DNA of 6,845 bases from Actinomycetota bacterium (GTDB lineage: Bacteria; Actinomycetota; Acidimicrobiia; Acidimicrobiales; AC-14). The notes under the pieces are model-generated. The model was not told the DNA's origin and ran no database searches. It was given only the letters and a program-made list of their open reading frames with translations. A program made the translations under genes and the position numbers. Location of the stretch: contig JAIVIH010000356.1 in assembly GCA_020200615.1 (NCBI GenBank), forward strand, positions 1 to 6,845, read 5' to 3'. Of this stretch, positions 1-6,215 are shown in pieces (within the stretch, counting starts at the first letter, position 1; the number at the start of each line of letters is the position of its first letter).

Positions 1-315
1 CTCGTCGTCAAGGAGGTGGAGGACCCCGAGACGGCCAGGCTGGTGATCGTCCTCGACCTCGGCCCGGGGGGCGTGGCCGCCGAGCGCGCCGCCGGCCGGG
101 CCGCGTGGTACGCCTTCGAGGCCCTGGGCCGGGGGTATGACGTGGTGCTGGGCACGGCCGAGGGGGCGCGTCTGGTCGTCGGCCGGGTGCGCTCGGGCTC
201 GGAGATCAACCGGCGCCTGGCTGCGGCCGCCCCGCCCGGGAGACCGAAAGTCAAGGTCGAGGGCGGCGCGGGCGGCATGGTTCTGGTGACCTACCGGGGA
301 GACTCATGGCACTGA
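1..315 (+). CDS. DUF58 domain-containing protein, C-terminal part (5' truncated by window)
   Basis: The frame is open from base 1 to the TGA at 313-315, so this is the 3' end of a longer gene. A GTG at 16 lies inside the conserved stretch and is probably not the start. The visible segment begins LVVKEVEDPETARLVIVLDL, which matches the DUF58 pattern of an acidic 'xVRExE' strand followed by a hydrophobic strand ending in an Asp (von Willebrand A-like fold). After it come a helix and a Gly-rich strand (AFEALGRGYDVVLGTAEG). DUF58 proteins usually sit between a MoxR-type AAA ATPase and a transglutaminase-like membrane protein and are thought to act in cell-envelope or complex maturation; the exact role is unknown. 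The next gene is such a transglutaminase-like protein and overlaps this one by 10 bp, which supports the call. The upstream ATPase, if present, is outside the window. Confidence 0.72.
   Translation, partial: LVVKEVEDPETARLVIVLDLGPGGVAAERAAGRAAWYAFEALGRGYDVVLGTAEGARLVVGRVRSGSEINRRLAAAAPPGRPKVKVEGGAGGMVLVTYRGDSWH
296..301 (+). promoter_or_regulatory. Ribosome binding site for the transglutaminase-like gene
   Basis: GGGGAG lies four bases before the ATG at 306, inside the end of the DUF58 gene. It supports that ATG, which is also the first start available in its frame. The spacing is a little short. The start overlaps the upstream stop, so coupled translation is likely. Confidence 0.5.
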
Positions 316-2354
316 CGGCGGCGATCGCCACGGCCGCGGCCGCCGTGTTCACGGTGGCTGGGTTGGGCGGCGCGGGCGCGGGAGGCGTGCTCCTACCGCC
401 GGTCGCCGTAGCCGTCGCCCTCCTGCCCGGACTGTTCCTCGTTGCCACCCGTCCCGAGCGCCGGGTCCTGGAGCCGGGGCGGGACCTCCGCCTCCTCATC
501 TTGCTCACCGGCGCGGGCGCGCTGATCTGGTACGTCACGAGCCAGAACCTCGGCACCGGCGGGCTGTCCACCACGGCCCGGCTGGCGATCCTCGCCGTCG
601 TGCCCCTCAGCATGCTGTGGCCGGCGCCCACCGTCGTCCGCTACTGCTTGTTGCTGAGCGCAGCCGGCATCGCTGCGGCGGGCCCGTCGCCGTCGCAGAG
701 CGCCTGGCCCCTTGCCGGCCTGGCCGCGGCGTCGGCCCTCGCCCTGGTGGCCCTCAACCGCCAGGCGTCGACGTCCGCTCCGTCACAACGTTCGGGCACG
801 CAGCCGTCACAACGTTCGGGCACGCAGCCGGGCCGCACCCCGGTTACGGGGGTTGGCCGTCGTCGGGTGGCGGGCGAGGCCACCACCGTCCTGGTGATCG
901 CCGGCCTGGCCGGCCTCGTCCTGGCCTCGCTGCTCCCCCCGCCGAAGTCTCCCGGCAGGCCCGAGCCCGGTGACGAACCGGGCGGGCAGGGCGCCACGTC
1001 GGCCTACCTCAACCCCAGCGACCGGCTCGACGCCGGCGGCAAGGGGTCAGGGCGCGGGAACCAGGTCATCCTCCGGATCACGGCCCCGGCCCCAGCCCTG
1101 TGGCGAGCGCAGACGTTCGACCGGTGGGACGGCAGGTCATGGGCCCGCAGCCGGGAAATCGAACGCGCCCTGGGGGGCTCCCCCGGCGGCCAGGCGGAAC
1201 AGCTCGCCTTCGTTCCCCCCGGCCTCGGTGACGGCCTGTCCGGCGGCGATCCCTTCGTCCAGCGGGTACGGGTGGAGGCGGCCTCCGCCGGCCTCCTCGT
1301 CGCCGCACCGCGAGCATATTCCCTCCGGCTCGCCCGGGGCCGGGTACAGGCGGCCGGCGACGGAACCGTCCGGGTCTCTCCCGCTCTCGGGAAGGGTGCG
1401 ACGTACGTCGTGACCAGCGTGCGGAGCCAGTCGAGCGACGACGACCTGCGGTCCGACGACCTCAGTTCCGGAGTTCTCCCGGAGGTCGCCCGGGCCTACC
1501 TCCAGCTCCCCGGGGGCGTTCCCGCTCCGGTAGGGGCCCTGGCGGCCGAGATCACCGCTGGCGCCCCCACGGGTTTCGACCGGGTCAAGGCCGTCGAGGA
1601 GTGGCTGGCCAACAACACCGAGGTCGCACCCGGCAGCCCGCGCCTGGCGCCCGGCGCCGACCCCATCGAGCACTTCCTGTTTACCGACCGGAAGGGATCG
1701 GCCGAGCAGGCGGCGTCGAGCATGGCCGTCATGCTCCGGACGCTCGGAATCCCGGCCCGGCTGGCGGTCGGTTTCCTGCCCGGTGACCGCTACCGCCTGG
1801 GCGGCGAGTTCGTCGTACGGGCCCGCCACGGCCACGCCTGGGTGGAAGCCTGGTTCCCCCAGGCGGGCTGGGTGGCCTTCGATCCCTCGGAACAAGCTCC
1901 CGAGCGGACGCAGGAGGCGGATTCGCTGCTCGACCGGCTCCGCCGCCTGCTGGCGGCCTTCTGGTGGGTCCTGGCCGTCACCTTGGCCGTCATCGTGAGA
2001 TGGCTGACCCTTCGTTCCATCCGGCGGTGGCAGCGCCGTCGCGCCCGTCCCTGGGTCTCGCGGTGCTACGAGCGCCTGCTTCGGGCCGGCCTCCGCCGCG
2101 GCCGGCCCCACGGCCGCCACGAGACGCCGGCCGAGTACTGCGCGGCGCTGGCCGACGAGGTCGCCGACGACCGGCTCGTCGAGGTGGGCCGCATGATCAC
2201 CCGGAGCGCCTATTCGGGCGGCGAGCCACCGGCGCCGGACCGGGCGTGGGCCGACAGCGTGGTGCGGGACACCGGCCGTCGATGGCGCCGCCGCCCGCCT
2301 TCGGGGAGCGACCGGACCGAGCACCTCCAGTCGGTAGGCTCCTCGGATGCCTGA
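306..2354 (+). CDS. Transglutaminase-like membrane protein (DUF3488 / transglutaminase core / DUF4129), catalytic Cys missing
   Basis: This 682-residue protein has the TgpA-type layout. Six or so hydrophobic segments lie in residues 5-152, then a loop with a tandem repeat (159-176) and another membrane helix near 195-213. An extracytoplasmic region follows, with the family's 'LWRAQTFDRWDGRSW' stretch. The transglutaminase core lies around 430-530, a last membrane helix near 548-568, and a DUF4129-like tail (ETPAEY near 610) ends the protein. Family members are thought to be papain-fold enzymes of the cell envelope. The catalytic His510 (GHAWVEAWF) and Asp526 (GWVAFDPS) are present. The position that normally holds the nucleophile (usual G-x-C-E-x-F-A) reads G-S-A-E-Q-A-A, with Ala466 in place of Cys, so classical transglutaminase or protease activity is unlikely. 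It overlaps the DUF58 gene by 10 bp and the transporter gene by 8 bp. The family is certain; the function is not. Confidence 0.9.
   Translation: MALTAAIATAAAAVFTVAGLGGAGAGGVLLPPVAVAVALLPGLFLVATRPERRVLEPGRDLRLLILLTGAGALIWYVTSQNLGTGGLSTTARLAILAVVPLSMLWPAPTVVRYCLLLSAAGIAAAGPSPSQSAWPLAGLAAASALALVALNRQASTSAPSQRSGTQPSQRSGTQPGRTPVTGVGRRRVAGEATTVLVIAGLAGLVLASLLPPPKSPGRPEPGDEPGGQGATSAYLNPSDRLDAGGKGSGRGNQVILRITAPAPALWRAQTFDRWDGRSWARSREIERALGGSPGGQAEQLAFVPPGLGDGLSGGDPFVQRVRVEAASAGLLVAAPRAYSLRLARGRVQAAGDGTVRVSPALGKGATYVVTSVRSQSSDDDLRSDDLSSGVLPEVARAYLQLPGGVPAPVGALAAEITAGAPTGFDRVKAVEEWLANNTEVAPGSPRLAPGADPIEHFLFTDRKGSAEQAASSMAVMLRTLGIPARLAVGFLPGDRYRLGGEFVVRARHGHAWVEAWFPQAGWVAFDPSEQAPERTQEADSLLDRLRRLLAAFWWVLAVTLAVIVRWLTLRSIRRWQRRRARPWVSRCYERLLRAGLRRGRPHGRHETPAEYCAALADEVADDRLVEVGRMITRSAYSGGEPPAPDRAWADSVVRDTGRRWRRRPPSGSDRTEHLQSVGSSDA
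780..827 (+). repeat. 24-bp in-frame perfect tandem repeat, two copies, inside the transglutaminase-like gene
   Basis: The 24-bp unit at 780-803 is repeated without change at 804-827, and the next three bases start a third copy. Each unit encodes PSQRSGTQ (residues 159-166 and 167-174) in the loop between two membrane helices. Three of the eight codons per unit end in A or T (TCA, CAA, CGT), unlike the nearly all G/C-ending codons around them. The unit contains the palindrome AACGTT. Its length is a multiple of three, so the frame is kept. It is probably a recent duplication or a short inserted repeat in a tolerant loop. Confidence 0.9.
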
Positions 2355-3489
2355 CCAGCGCCCGGTCCCGGTCAAGACGATCCTCGTCAGCATCGGGCTG
2401 GTCCTGGCCTCGCTGCTCGCCCTCTACCTCGCCTACCTCCTCTCGCACATCCTGGCCCTCCTGGTGGTGGCGGCGTTCTTCGCCATCGTCCTCAGCCCGC
2501 CCATCGACTTCCTGCGGCGCCATCTCCACCTGAGCACGGGTTTGGCCACCGCCGTCGTCTTCCTCGGCCTCATCGCGCTGATGACCGGGCTCCTCTACAT
2601 GTTCATCCGTCCTCTCGTCGACCAGACCGAGCAGTTCATCGACAACTTCCCCAAGTACGTGAGCGACGCCAAGGCCGGGAGGGGCCCGGTGGGGAGCCTG
2701 GTCAAGCGCTACGACCTCGACCAGAGGATCGAGGAGAACCAGGACCGGCTCGAGAAGTCGTTGCGCGACTCGGGTGGTAACGCCGTCAAATGGGTGGGGC
2801 GGATCTTCGCCGGCATCCTTTCCACCCTCACCGTGCTGGTCCTCGCCGTGCTCATGGTCCTCTACGGGCCCGACCTGTTGACCAGCGGTCTGGGTGCGCT
2901 GTCGCCACCAAAGCGCGACCGGGTGAAGGCGGTGGCCACAGACTGCGCCCGGGCCCTGACTGGCTACGTCATGGGCAATCTCCTGATCAGCGCGGTGGCC
3001 GGCACCGTCACATTCATCGCCCTCTCCATCTTCGGCGTCCCCTTCCGGGGAGTGCTGGCCCTGTTCGTGGCCTTCACCGACCTCATCCCTCTGATCGGGG
3101 CCACCCTCGGCGCCATCCCCACCATCGGCGTGGCCTTCCTCCACTCCACGACCGCGGGCATCGGGATGCTCATCGTCTACATCGTCTACCAGCAGTTCGA
3201 GAACCACGTCCTGCAGGTGGCGATCATGTCCAAGACCGTCCAAATCAACCAGCTCGTCGTGCTGGTCAGCGTGCTGATCGGCGTCGAGCTGTTCGGCATG
3301 CTCGGCGCCCTCCTCGCCATCCCCGTGGCCGGCGTCCTCCAGGTGGTGGTCCGTGACCTCTGGGACAACCGCAAGGGTCGCATGAAGGAGGAGGCCACCA
3401 TCGGCGCCGACGAGGTCCCCGTCTCCGAGGTGGTCGAAGACATGCGGGACGCGGAGGGGGCGGAGCCGAGCCTCCTCGATGGCTCGTGA
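2347..3489 (+). CDS. AI-2E family transporter (PF01594)
   Basis: This 380-residue integral membrane protein is of normal length for the AI-2E transporter family, which includes TqsA/YdiK-type exporters and some Na+/H+ antiporters. Two N-terminal helices (about 10-32 and 35-56) are followed by a third (65-88), then a charged soluble loop (about 90-150, 'LVKRYDLDQRIEENQDRLEK'). At least four further hydrophobic blocks run from 155 to 340. Family signatures are clear: TDLIPLIGATLGAIP from residue 244, QQFENHVLQ from 282, and a final 'GVELFGMLGALLAIPVAGVL' block. The tail (about 345-380) is acidic and cytoplasmic. The ATG overlaps the upstream stop by 8 bp, and the gene's end overlaps the cyclodeaminase start by 11 bp. 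The substrate cannot be read from the sequence. Its place before arginine-catabolic genes leaves room for an amino-acid or ion role, which is a guess. Confidence 0.92.
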   Translation: MPDQRPVPVKTILVSIGLVLASLLALYLAYLLSHILALLVVAAFFAIVLSPPIDFLRRHLHLSTGLATAVVFLGLIALMTGLLYMFIRPLVDQTEQFIDNFPKYVSDAKAGRGPVGSLVKRYDLDQRIEENQDRLEKSLRDSGGNAVKWVGRIFAGILSTLTVLVLAVLMVLYGPDLLTSGLGALSPPKRDRVKAVATDCARALTGYVMGNLLISAVAGTVTFIALSIFGVPFRGVLALFVAFTDLIPLIGATLGAIPTIGVAFLHSTTAGIGMLIVYIVYQQFENHVLQVAIMSKTVQINQLVVLVSVLIGVELFGMLGALLAIPVAGVLQVVVRDLWDNRKGRMKEEATIGADEVPVSEVVEDMRDAEGAEPSLLDGS

Positions 3490-4789
3490 GGTGGTCGAGG
3501 TCGGGGGGCACATCATCGATTCCCTGATCCTCGCCAAGATCCTGGACGTCATCCTCGACGCCGGCGCCGACTACGAGATGATGGACGTGGAGATCGGCCG
3601 GACCAACGCCGACCCCAGCCGGGCCCGGCTCGAGGTCCGGGCCGAGGACGACGAGACCCTGAGCCGGCTCCTGTCCGAGCTCCAGGTCCACGGGGCGAAC
3701 CGGGTGAACCAGTCGGACGCACGGGTGGAGGCGACGACCGTCGACGGCGTCCTGCCCGAGGACTTCTACTCCACGACCAACCTGCCCACCCAGGTCCGGC
3801 GGGACGGGCACTGGATCGACGTGGAGAACCCGGAAATGGACTGCGCCCTGGTCATGCGGCCCGACGGCCGGGCCCGCACGGAGCCCATGCACCGGGTCCA
3901 CGCCGGAGACCAGGTCGTGGTCGGTCGCGAGGGGGTCCGGGTTCAACCCCTGGACCGGCCGCGCGGGGCCAACCCCTTCGAGTTCATGACCTCGGAGGTT
4001 TCCTCGGAGAAGCCGAAGGACGTGCTGGTGGCGGCGGTGGCCGACCGCATCCGGCGAGCCAAGGCCGCGGGCGGAAAGATCCTCGTCGTGTGCGGGCCGG
4101 CCGTGGTCCACACCGGCGCCGCCCCCCACCTCGCCCAGCTGGTCCGGTCGGGCTGGGTCGATGTCCTCTTCGCCGGGAACGGCTTCGCCGCCCACGACAT
4201 CGAGTCCAACGTCCTCGGGACGTCCCTCGGGGTGTCCCTGGGCGGCGGGACTCCGGCTGACGGCGCCCGCTCGGGCCCTGTTTCCCGCTCAGATGGCCGC
4301 TCGGGCCCTGCTTCCCGCTCAGATGGCCGCTCGGGCCATGGCAACCATCTGCGGGCGATCAACGAGATCCGCCGGCGGGGCTCCATCGCCTCGGCGGTGG
4401 CCGACGGCTACCTCCGCTCGGGCGTCATGTACGAGTGCGTCACCCACGGCGTGCCCTTTGTGCTGGGTGGTTCGGTGAGGGACGACGGACCCCTCCCCGA
4501 CGTCTACACCGACGTGGTCGAGACCGCCGATGTCATGCGCACGCACGTGCCCGGGGTGGCGGTGGCGCTCATGCTGGCCTCGACCCTGCACGCCATCGCC
4601 ACCGGGAACCTCCTCCCGGCGGGGGTGGAGACCTTCTGCGTGGACATCAACCAGGCCGTCGTCACCAAGCTCGCCGACCGGGGCAGCCACCAGGCGCTGG
4701 GGATCGTGACCGACGTGGGCCTCTTCCTCCGTACCCTGGCCGACCACCTGGGGGAGCCGGCACCCGATCCGGCGGAGCCGCCCGGGTGA
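3479..4789 (+). CDS. TIGR00300/COG1915 protein, AgrE/ArgZ-type ornithine cyclodeaminase family
   Basis: This 436-residue protein belongs to the family long named TIGR00300 or 'LOR/SDH-like'. Its members include the archaeal ornithine cyclodeaminase and the C-terminal half of cyanobacterial AgrE/ArgZ; the known reaction is ornithine to proline plus ammonia, with NAD. The N-terminal LOR/SDH-like domain begins REVVEVGGHIIDSLILAKIL, the usual family start, which supports the ATG at 3479. The nucleotide-binding part follows, with KILVVCGPAVVHTG (200-213), FAGNGFAAHDIE, INEIRRRGSIA, DDGPLPDVYTD (335-345), MLASTLHAIATGNLLP and CVDINQAVVTKLADRG (387-402). These motifs look intact. An extra 23 or so residues of tandem repeat (about 263-286) split the segment that normally reads roughly G-x-P-x-x-GGHxNHLxAINEIRR. 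It overlaps the transporter by 11 bp and the amidinotransferase gene by 4 bp. The family is sure; the substrate is inferred from homologues. Confidence 0.88.
   Translation: MAREVVEVGGHIIDSLILAKILDVILDAGADYEMMDVEIGRTNADPSRARLEVRAEDDETLSRLLSELQVHGANRVNQSDARVEATTVDGVLPEDFYSTTNLPTQVRRDGHWIDVENPEMDCALVMRPDGRARTEPMHRVHAGDQVVVGREGVRVQPLDRPRGANPFEFMTSEVSSEKPKDVLVAAVADRIRRAKAAGGKILVVCGPAVVHTGAAPHLAQLVRSGWVDVLFAGNGFAAHDIESNVLGTSLGVSLGGGTPADGARSGPVSRSDGRSGPASRSDGRSGHGNHLRAINEIRRRGSIASAVADGYLRSGVMYECVTHGVPFVLGGSVRDDGPLPDVYTDVVETADVMRTHVPGVAVALMLASTLHAIATGNLLPAGVETFCVDINQAVVTKLADRGSHQALGIVTDVGLFLRTLADHLGEPAPDPAEPPG
4268..4337 (+). repeat. 30-bp in-frame tandem repeat, about 2.3 copies, inside the cyclodeaminase gene
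   Basis: Units lie at 4268-4297 and 4298-4327 and differ at one base (T at 4281, C at 4311; Val versus Ala). A third partial copy covers 4328-4337. Each unit encodes RSGPxSRSDG (residues 264-273 and 274-283), and the partial copy gives RSG. Four codons in unit 1 end in A or T (CCT, GTT, TCA, GAT), in contrast to the flanking codons. Removing about 23 residues would leave ...TPADG joined to GHGNHLRAINEIRR, which is the arrangement I expect in family members, so the repeat reads as an insertion. Confidence 0.9.
4774..4777 (+). promoter_or_regulatory. Ribosome binding site deciding the GTG start at 4786
   Basis: GGAG lies eight bases before the GTG at 4786, within the last codons of the cyclodeaminase gene. 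It favours this GTG over the in-frame ATG at 4816, which would remove the first conserved strand of the enzyme. Confidence 0.45.
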
Positions 4790-5604
4790 CGCTGGCCTGG
4801 GGAAGACGGTTCCTCATGTGCCCACCCGAGCACTTCGGGGTCCTGTACGAGATCAACCCGTGGATGCACCAGGAGGTGGCCGTCGACCTCGACGTGGCCC
4901 GTGCGCAGTGGGACGGTCTGGTCGCCATCCTGACCTCGGCGGGAGCGGAGGTGGAGGTCCTCGAACCCCAGCCCGGCCTGCCCGACCTGGTGTTCACGGC
5001 CAACGCCGGTGTGGTCAACCGGGGCTGCTTCATCCCCAGCCGCTTCCGTCACCCCCAGCGCCGGGGCGAGGTCCCCCACTACGTGGCCTGGTTCGAGAGC
5101 CACGGCTACCAGGTCGCCGAGCTGCCCGAAGGCGTGGCCCACGAGGGCGCCGGGGATGCCCTCCCCTTCGGACGCGTCCTGCTCTCCGGGTACCGGTTCC
5201 GATCCGACGCCGCCGCCCACGTGGAGCTGTCGCGGCTGGCCGGCGTCCCCGTACGACCGGTGGAGCTGTCGGACTCGCGCTTCTACCACCTCGATCTCAC
5301 GTTCTGCCCCCTCGACGAACGGCGGGCCCTCGTCGCTCCCGGAGCGTGGGACTCCTATGGGCGCCGGGTCATCGAGGCGCTCGTCCCGGAGCCTTTCGCC
5401 CTCGAGCCCGACGAGACGGCCGCCTTCTGCGCCAACTCGGTGGTCATCGGCACCACCGTGGTCATGCCCGTCTGCCCGGTCCGGGTCGGGCGGCAGCTGG
5501 AGCAGTGGGGGTTCGACGTCGTGGTGGCCCCGGTGGGGGAGTTCCAGAAGGCGGGCGGGGCCTGTCGCTGCCTCACCCTGGCTCTCGACGTGGCCGTAGG
5601 GTGA
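4786..5604 (+). CDS. Amidinotransferase-fold enzyme, probable stand-alone arginine dihydrolase (ArgZ/AgrE N-terminal domain type)
   Basis: This 272-residue protein has the pentein (guanidine-modifying) fold of arginine deiminases, DDAH and the N-terminal domain of cyanobacterial ArgZ/AgrE. It opens with RRFLMCPPEHFGVLYEINPW (7-26), very like ArgZ, followed by QPGLPDLVFTANAGVV (62-77). The catalytic set appears intact: Asn73 in FTANAG, acidic residues in HEGAGDAL (119-126), His168 in YHLDLTF, and Cys262 near the end in RCLTL. From memory of the published work, ArgZ uses an Asn, His and Cys at nearly the same positions, and the Asn distinguishes the dihydrolase (arginine to ornithine, two ammonia and CO2) from deiminases. 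The GTG start overlaps the upstream stop as GTGA. The ATG at 4816 is an alternative start but would drop conserved residues. Dimethylargininase or arginine deiminase activity remains possible. Confidence 0.85.
   Translation: MTLAWGRRFLMCPPEHFGVLYEINPWMHQEVAVDLDVARAQWDGLVAILTSAGAEVEVLEPQPGLPDLVFTANAGVVNRGCFIPSRFRHPQRRGEVPHYVAWFESHGYQVAELPEGVAHEGAGDALPFGRVLLSGYRFRSDAAAHVELSRLAGVPVRPVELSDSRFYHLDLTFCPLDERRALVAPGAWDSYGRRVIEALVPEPFALEPDETAAFCANSVVIGTTVVMPVCPVRVGRQLEQWGFDVVVAPVGEFQKAGGACRCLTLALDVAVG
5598..5603 (+). promoter_or_regulatory. Possible ribosome binding site for the reductase, start ambiguous
   Basis: AGGGTG overlaps the end of the amidinotransferase gene and lies six bases before a GTG at 5610. 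It would suit that start better than the GTG at 5601, which has no clear purine-rich site in front of it. The two choices differ by three residues. Confidence 0.3.
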
Positions 5605-6215
5605 CGCCCGTGCGCATCGCCGTCCTTGGAACCGGGCACGTCGGTCAGGCCCTGGGTCGGACGTGGACGGCCAAGGGCCACAACGTCGTGCTCGGGTCAC
5701 GACGTCCGGCTCAGGTCGACTGCTCCTTCGGCCAAGCCGACAGCCTGGCCGGAGCGGCCGCTCGGAGTGAGGTGGTCGTCCTCGCCGTCCCCTTCGCCGC
5801 CGTGCCTGACACCGTCGCCGCCGCTGGCGACCTCGAGGGCAAGGTGGTGGTGGATGCCACCAACCCCGTCGGTGTGGCCATCCCCGCGCCGCACCACTCG
5901 GGCGCCGAGCTGGTGGCCTCCCTCGTCCCGACGGCCCGGGTGGTGAAGTCGTTCAACACCATGGGCTGGGAGACGATGGCCAACCCGTTGCTCGAAGGAC
6001 GGCGGGCCCTGAACCTCATGTGCGGAGACGACGCCGGCGCCAAGGCGTCGGTGTTGACCTTGTCCGAGGACCTGGGGTTCGACACGGTCGACGCCGGCGA
6101 GCTCTCGGCCGCCCACCTGTTGGAGGCAGCCGCTCAGCTGTGGATTCACCTGGCCTTTCGGGCCGGGCTCGGGCGGGACGTGGCCTTCGCCCTCCTCCGC
6201 CGAGCCGCGGGCTGA
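5601..6215 (+). CDS. NADP-binding oxidoreductase of the F420-dependent NADP reductase family (PF03807 fold)
   Basis: This 204-residue protein is close to the length of Fno-like reductases. The dinucleotide-binding motif is GTGHVG (residues 10-15), and the second strand ends LGSRR (31-35); its basic residues favour NADP(H) over NADH. Further family marks are VVVLAVPF, VVDATNP (83-89) and VKSFNTMGWE (115-124). The FNTMG form is common in members annotated simply as NAD(P)-binding or NADPH-dependent reductases, so true F420 use is uncertain. The same Pfam family covers pyrroline-5-carboxylate reductase N-termini, but the dimerisation domain of ProC is absent. The gene follows the arginine dihydrolase-like gene with a 4-bp GTGA overlap, so a role linked to arginine/proline metabolism is possible but unproven. 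The GTG at 5610 is an alternative start. Confidence 0.82.
   Translation: MTPVRIAVLGTGHVGQALGRTWTAKGHNVVLGSRRPAQVDCSFGQADSLAGAAARSEVVVLAVPFAAVPDTVAAAGDLEGKVVVDATNPVGVAIPAPHHSGAELVASLVPTARVVKSFNTMGWETMANPLLEGRRALNLMCGDDAGAKASVLTLSEDLGFDTVDAGELSAAHLLEAAAQLWIHLAFRAGLGRDVAFALLRRAAG

Follow-up and report, generated by a model that had tools for sequence, protein, structure and literature searches.

The window analyzed here, a 6,845-nucleotide stretch of DNA from an uncultured actinobacterium, raises the question of whether two separate proteins could do the work of AgrE/ArgZ, the fused enzyme that converts arginine into proline (PMC8262935). We observed a run of five overlapping genes on the + strand at positions 306-6215. 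The run starts with a TgpA-like transglutaminase gene (306-2354) and an AI-2E family transporter gene (2347-3489; PF01594, 204.8 bits), the latter overlapping by 11 bp a TIGR00300-family ornithine cyclodeaminase gene (OCD; 3479-4789, 436 aa). This gene is followed by one for an ArgZ-type arginine dihydrolase-like amidinotransferase (ADH; 4786-5604, 272 aa, GTG start) and, after another 4 bp overlap, by a NADP/F420-oxidoreductase-like gene (5601-6215; PF03807, 61.4 bits). The original prediction had described a TIGR00300-type gene and an ArgZ-like gene overlapping by 4 bp, and this was confirmed: both ORFs lie on the same strand in different frames, and the OCD stop at 4789 shares the GTGA at 4786-4789 with the ADH start. 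We consider it likely that the pair is a two-protein arginine-to-proline module, whose activities, product, cofactor and coupling are predicted from sequence. This reading builds on what was observed of families, residues, gene order, conservation, trees and lar clustering. The two window proteins reached 396.5 and 250 bits with the bifunctional model NF052231, under its cut-off of 1025, and we infer that the pair works like AgrE/ArgZ without belonging to the fused family.

The OCD product is a member of TIGR00300, with 493.1 bits for a cut-off of 410.8, and PF21570, PF04455 and PF21571 were all found above their gathering scores. As judged by alignment, 62 of the 63 columns that are near-invariant in 102 other OCDs were intact in the window OCD. 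Its closest relative in the protein database, P0003, comes from an Acidimicrobiales MAG and is 97% identical. The structure matches listed were AgrE/ArgZ, 3c2q and 3mgj, then deoxyhypusine synthases, and the M. maripaludis crystal 3c2q was the top one by Z (37.1); LarA was absent among these listed matches, which is evidence neither for nor against its being a fold relative. From this archaeal-type TIGR00300 enzyme, the window OCD differs by a 23-residue insert and by the overlapping ADH gene. The archaeal relative MMP_1218 is reported to form proline from ornithine (PMC10809761).

The ADH half lies between two named families. It scored 246.5 bits with the Arg_dihydro model NF052232, about 200 under the cut-off of 450, and 243.4 bits with the Mtb-type dimethylargininase model DiMArgaseDdahMtb (NF045659), also under the cut-off, here 300. 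The NF052232 cut-off was missed as well by the other split ADHs scanned and by the fused protein L111 (346.2 bits), and members from Kitasatospora, Pseudonocardia and Streptomyces (L100) scored 387-438 bits with NF045659. The closest solved structures were AgrE and ArgZ (E 6e-63 and 5e-58; entries 6lrf/6jv0), with ADH matching AgrE residues 6-269. The predicted ADH structure (mean pLDDT 95) aligned with the AgrE/ArgZ dihydrolase domain at a TM of 0.86-0.94 and 38-44% identity (0.94 to 6lrf), compared to a TM of 0.77-0.83 and 15-19% identity with DDAHs in the structure alignment.

We then looked at individual residues, three of which, Asn73, His168 and Cys262, the original prediction had given as in place. 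The alignment agreed, pairing Asn73 (codon 5002-5004, + strand) with AgrE/ArgZ Asn71, His168 (5287-5289, +) with AgrE His168 and Cys262 (5569-5571, +) with the nucleophile, AgrE Cys264. In addition, Arg92, Glu120, Arg139 and Asp170 aligned with AgrE Arg90, Glu118, Arg139 and Asp170. According to PDB titles, ArgZ N71S is "covalently bond to a reaction intermediate" and ArgZ C264S and AgrE C264A are substrate-bound, which ties Asn71 and Cys264 to catalysis. From these titles and from general knowledge, we take the Cys, His and Asn of ADH to be catalytic. An Asn at the 71 position was found in 57/57 sequences labelled split (including L111, which is really fused), in 26/26 fused ones, in 29/29 ADHs without OCD, in 5/5 of the Mtb type and in one Halorubrum sequence, and an Asp in the Bacillus and Ruegeria sequences. 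Since the five Mtb-type sequences from Actinomycetes share these residues, residues alone cannot separate a dihydrolase from the Mtb type.

It is unlikely, in our view, that ADH is a dimethylargininase or deiminase yielding citrulline, with the OCD using ornithine from elsewhere. This alternative draws on the commonest name among the named ADH relatives listed, N-dimethylarginine dimethylaminohydrolase (P0169 is named arginine dihydrolase), and on the NF045659 score, which is about equal to that for Arg_dihydro. The Mtb type (NF045659; Rv2323c group) has a single domain of ~270 aa and agrees with ADH at each catalytic position compared; it formed a separate supported clade in the best ADH tree (100/97), and joining it with the window ADH clade was not rejected (p 0.064). 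However, the window ADH stayed under the Mtb-type cut-off, and the other two dimethylargininase models, NF045658 and NF045660, gave 32.7 and 63 bits for cut-offs of 450 and 340. Canonical DDAH (P. aeruginosa, human) and arginine deiminase have the superfamily fold and the His/Cys pair in common with ADH but differ by much lower family scores for the window protein and by the lower DDAH identity and TM given above. The Asn at the 71 position, where the Bacillus and Ruegeria sequences have Asp, and the recurrent pairing of ADH with an ornithine-consuming enzyme also argue against this alternative. For the five Mtb-type examples from Actinomycetes, 4 kb of flanking sequence on either side held no OCD match. 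Moreover, the Mtb-type gene is reported to be necessary in M. tuberculosis for arginine carbon to reach proline: with labelled arginine, the 13C excess of proline was 49.8% in the wild type and 6.4% when the gene was missing (PMC4569260). The dimethylargininase label of the Mtb type is itself doubtful, because such a drop fits a dimethylargininase poorly.

For the two-protein module, we propose that OCD and ADH are co-translated from the overlapping genes. In ADH, Cys262 would attack the guanidinium carbon of arginine, with His168 as acid/base, and Asn73 would assist two hydrolyses giving ornithine, two ammonia and CO2. OCD would then cyclise ornithine into proline, freeing a third ammonia, with either NAD+ or a nickel-pincer nucleotide as cofactor, the former suggested by the AgrE crystal and the latter by the NCBI family name and by lar clustering in relatives. 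The predicted overall reaction, arginine to proline, three ammonia and CO2, would be the same as that of AgrE (Alr4995, Anabaena) and ArgZ (Sll1336, Synechocystis), the NF052231 enzymes, which have both catalytic domains and the aligned residues in common with the pair.

We assessed how well the pair is conserved, starting with 80 related loci, the top-ranked ones among 148 confirmed. OCD lay within 250 bp upstream of ADH on the same strand in 49/80; it was further off in 2, no OCD was found upstream in 22, and 7 had too little upstream sequence. At an ADH identity of at least 60%, OCD was adjacent upstream in 36 of the 41 loci judged, and of the 51 loci holding an OCD, 24 had a start available that would allow the 4-bp overlap. 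Adjacent pairs occurred in six phyla as titled: Actinomycetota, Planctomycetota, Nitrospirota, Deltaproteobacteria (Myxococcota in NCBI ranks), Armatimonadota and Omnitrophota. Whole-genome surveys were run with the fused-enzyme HMM, contig ends being kept in the counts. OCD was detected in 24 of 118 Nitrospirota genomes, with ADH directly downstream in all 24, and eight more had ADH alone. In the survey of the Aquihabitans class, 4/119 genomes had OCD, adjoined by ADH in 3, and in Actinomycetota 28/198 had OCD, adjoined by ADH in 4; the 28 exclude four genomes with weaker OCD-like matches (192-236 bits, partial profile). The survey of Chloroflexota, the phylum of a Ktedonobacteraceae genome, gave OCD in 34/121 with ADH adjoining in none, and that of Planctomycetota gave an adjacent split pair in 2/119 and a fusion in 1/119. 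The pair is thus conserved, patchy, and rare across Actinomycetota: the adjacency of the two families recurs in most related loci but in few genomes of the phylum that holds the window. As 24 of the 28 Actinomycetota genomes with OCD had no adjoining ADH and ADHs without OCD were frequent, pairing is not obligatory. In a literature search with most subscription journals outside its coverage, none of the matches listed concerned a split arginine dihydrolase/OCD pair.

Ornithine aminotransferase was considered as a neighbour of OCD-free ADHs and rejected, with one aminotransferase class III among 51 flanking proteins scanned out of 124 listed; no Pfam family occurred in more than two of these 51. 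In the Aquihabitans class, many small genomes (0.7-1.1 Mb) gave no OCD match and encoded an ADH-like protein of 267-270 aa.

The window OCD carries a 23-residue insert (residues 263-285; 4265-4333, +), which lies just before the conserved GGHxxHL motif and is built by an in-frame 30-bp tandem repeat (4267-4337; 2.4 copies, 97% matches). The spacing between the flanking motifs was 34 residues, the longest among the sequences measured. It was 11 in 100 of the 102 other OCDs of the tree set and 13 in one (one not measured), and 11 in 120/120 fused proteins listed; among the 120 near OCD relatives listed, it ranged over 8-24 in the 116 measured (four not measured). Loops longer than the usual 11 were present in 15 of these 116, reaching 19 (P0020) besides the 24 of P0003, so the OCD loop evidently tolerates some additions. 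In P0003, 97% identical to the window OCD, the repeat is one unit (10 residues) shorter, which indicates that the array varies in length. The predicted OCD structure had a pLDDT below 50 at residues 257-284, with the insert predicted to be disordered.

The insert may disturb the active site. We weighed a second alternative, in which the pair works in relatives but the window OCD is impaired by the repeat, so that arginine would be taken to ornithine only. The position of 23 added residues beside GGHxxHL, the longest spacing measured, the predicted disorder and a repeat count that differs between near-identical sequences are all in line with it. Nevertheless, the reading frame is intact in both repeat versions, the near-invariant columns are kept with one exception, and longer loops occur in other relatives; we regard impairment as rather improbable, and a working OCD remains our preferred reading. 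A second in-frame tandem repeat was observed in the TgpA-like transglutaminase gene (780-830; 24 bp, 2.1 copies, 100% matches), and short repeats may tend to expand in frame in this genome.

To place the pair relative to the fused enzyme, we compared domain order and trees. OCD matches AgrE residues 286-692, ADH matches residues 6-269 and the OCD gene comes first, so the order is reversed with respect to the fusion, as the original prediction had it. AgrE/ArgZ is one polypeptide starting with the dihydrolase domain, whereas the window encodes two polypeptides from genes in the opposite order, and its OCD belongs to another branch of the family. A query with the fused L111 gave 4,040 matches, and all 120 relatives listed had the ADH-OCD order. 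Among the few named ones are Pirellulales, Planctomycetales, Phycisphaerales and one Verrucomicrobia, so the fusion also occurs outside cyanobacteria, a group represented here by two PDB sequences.

Careful trees were built from 45 of 103 OCD sequences and 48 of 121 ADH sequences; loci L082-L096, which come from genomes already represented, were omitted from domain extraction and 12 OCD sequences were trimmed at their stop codon. The careful trees replaced quick ones, of which those for ADH (without L102 and L103) were set aside with their tests, because a forced clade outscored the free search. In both trees, the fused proteins made up a single clade (ADH 100/98, OCD 100/99). In the OCD tree, the fused OCDs grouped with four planctomycete-phylum OCDs from genomes without an ADH match (100/98), and the split OCDs with unpaired OCDs from the Chloroflexota and Actinomycetota surveys (97/88). 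With groups defined after viewing a tree, a single clade of fused and split OCDs was rejected (p 6e-9; 0.017 in the earlier test on the quick tree), as was one of the fused and window clades alone (p 1.4e-6). For ADH, a clade uniting the window ADH clade with other split ADHs and leaving out the fused ones was not rejected (p 0.197). Taken together, these trees suggest that the split pair and the AgrE/ArgZ fusion probably arose independently, each by combining members of the same two families; on the simplest reading, ADH and OCD would have been joined in a single fusion and, one or more times, in an operon of opposite order. Direct descent of the fusion from the operon is very improbable: the joining of window, other split and fused ADHs in the ADH tree (92/90) would favour it but falls under the star limit, the OCD halves disagree and the domain order is opposite in every fused protein listed. 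Thus, the conserved overlapping pair with its catalytic residues kept stands as a two-protein counterpart of AgrE/ArgZ in opposite order, and the suggestion that it shows the ancestral unfused state is not supported.

A further question concerns the cofactor of the ornithine step. AgrE was solved with ornithine and NAD+, as its PDB title states, whereas the NCBI name of the TIGR00300 family includes nickel-pincer nucleotide dependence, which means that this cofactor has already been proposed by someone; no paper on a nickel-pincer OCD was among the matches listed in our literature search, most subscription journals being outside it. LarC was present in 24/24 Nitrospirota survey genomes with OCD compared to 52/94 without (Fisher p 7e-6, a test that ignores shared ancestry), and in 33/34 compared to 28/87 in the Chloroflexota survey (p 1e-11, with the same disregard of ancestry). 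In 21 of the 24 Nitrospirota genomes with OCD, a 10-kb range downstream of it held LarC, at a distance of 4-7 kb and in the same orientation. The two survey clusters examined, L132 and L133, had the order OCD-ADH-gpsA-larB-larC followed by a sodium/calcium exchanger-like gene; larB and larC scored above their cut-offs there, and some gaps held opposite-strand ORFs (one was scanned and gave no family). The acidimicrobial locus L017 had larB ~160 bp upstream of OCD-ADH, and Aquihabitans had larB and larC together, away from OCD-ADH. LarA was found in 6 of the 24 OCD-bearing Nitrospirota and also in 12 of 15 chosen OCD-bearing genomes outside that phylum. LarC with neither an OCD nor a LarA-type (PF09861) match occurred in 51 of the 118 Nitrospirota survey genomes, and 1 of 16 chosen genomes with OCD had no LarC. 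LarC therefore has other users, and another nickel-pincer cofactor user may exist in the Nitrospirota survey genomes. Overall, nickel-pincer nucleotide dependence of OCD appears likely.

More broadly, we see a little less than an even chance that one and the same arginine-to-proline machine came together on two or more occasions from the same two families, once as the ADH-OCD fusion of cyanobacteria and planctomycetes and, once or more, as the co-translated OCD-ADH operon of Acidimicrobiia, Nitrospirota, Myxococcota-type bacteria, Armatimonadota and others; that the ornithine step of the operon form, perhaps of all forms, uses the nickel-pincer nucleotide and not NAD+; and that Nitrospira-type nitrogen release from arginine would thus need nickel and the adjoining larB/larC. 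These results place arginine dihydrolase-type genes beside OCD in Nitrospirota, Acidimicrobiia and other groups, where current database names are commonly dimethylarginine dimethylaminohydrolase and saccharopine-dehydrogenase-like. Because the AgrE-like halves can be expressed apart, ornithine transfer between sites becomes testable with and without fusion, and the lar clustering makes the choice between NAD+ and nickel-pincer nucleotide directly testable.

Regarding the other genes of the run, the NADP/F420-oxidoreductase-like gene is no conserved partner of the pair: a homologue was found in 1/80 related loci (L003), and its product scored 74.4 bits with the npdG model, under the cut-off of 149.8. 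A homologue of the AI-2E transporter was present upstream on the same strand in 16/80 related loci. For some of the acidimicrobial clade, it probably belongs to the operon, and it is a possible transport partner in arginine use. In L039, ADH (2101-2925) comes immediately after an AI-2E transporter match (990-2081) and no OCD was detected, which looks like an operon from which OCD was lost or moved. Finally, L021, titled Acidobacteria, fell within the acidimicrobial clade in both trees and represents either a misbinned contig or a transfer.
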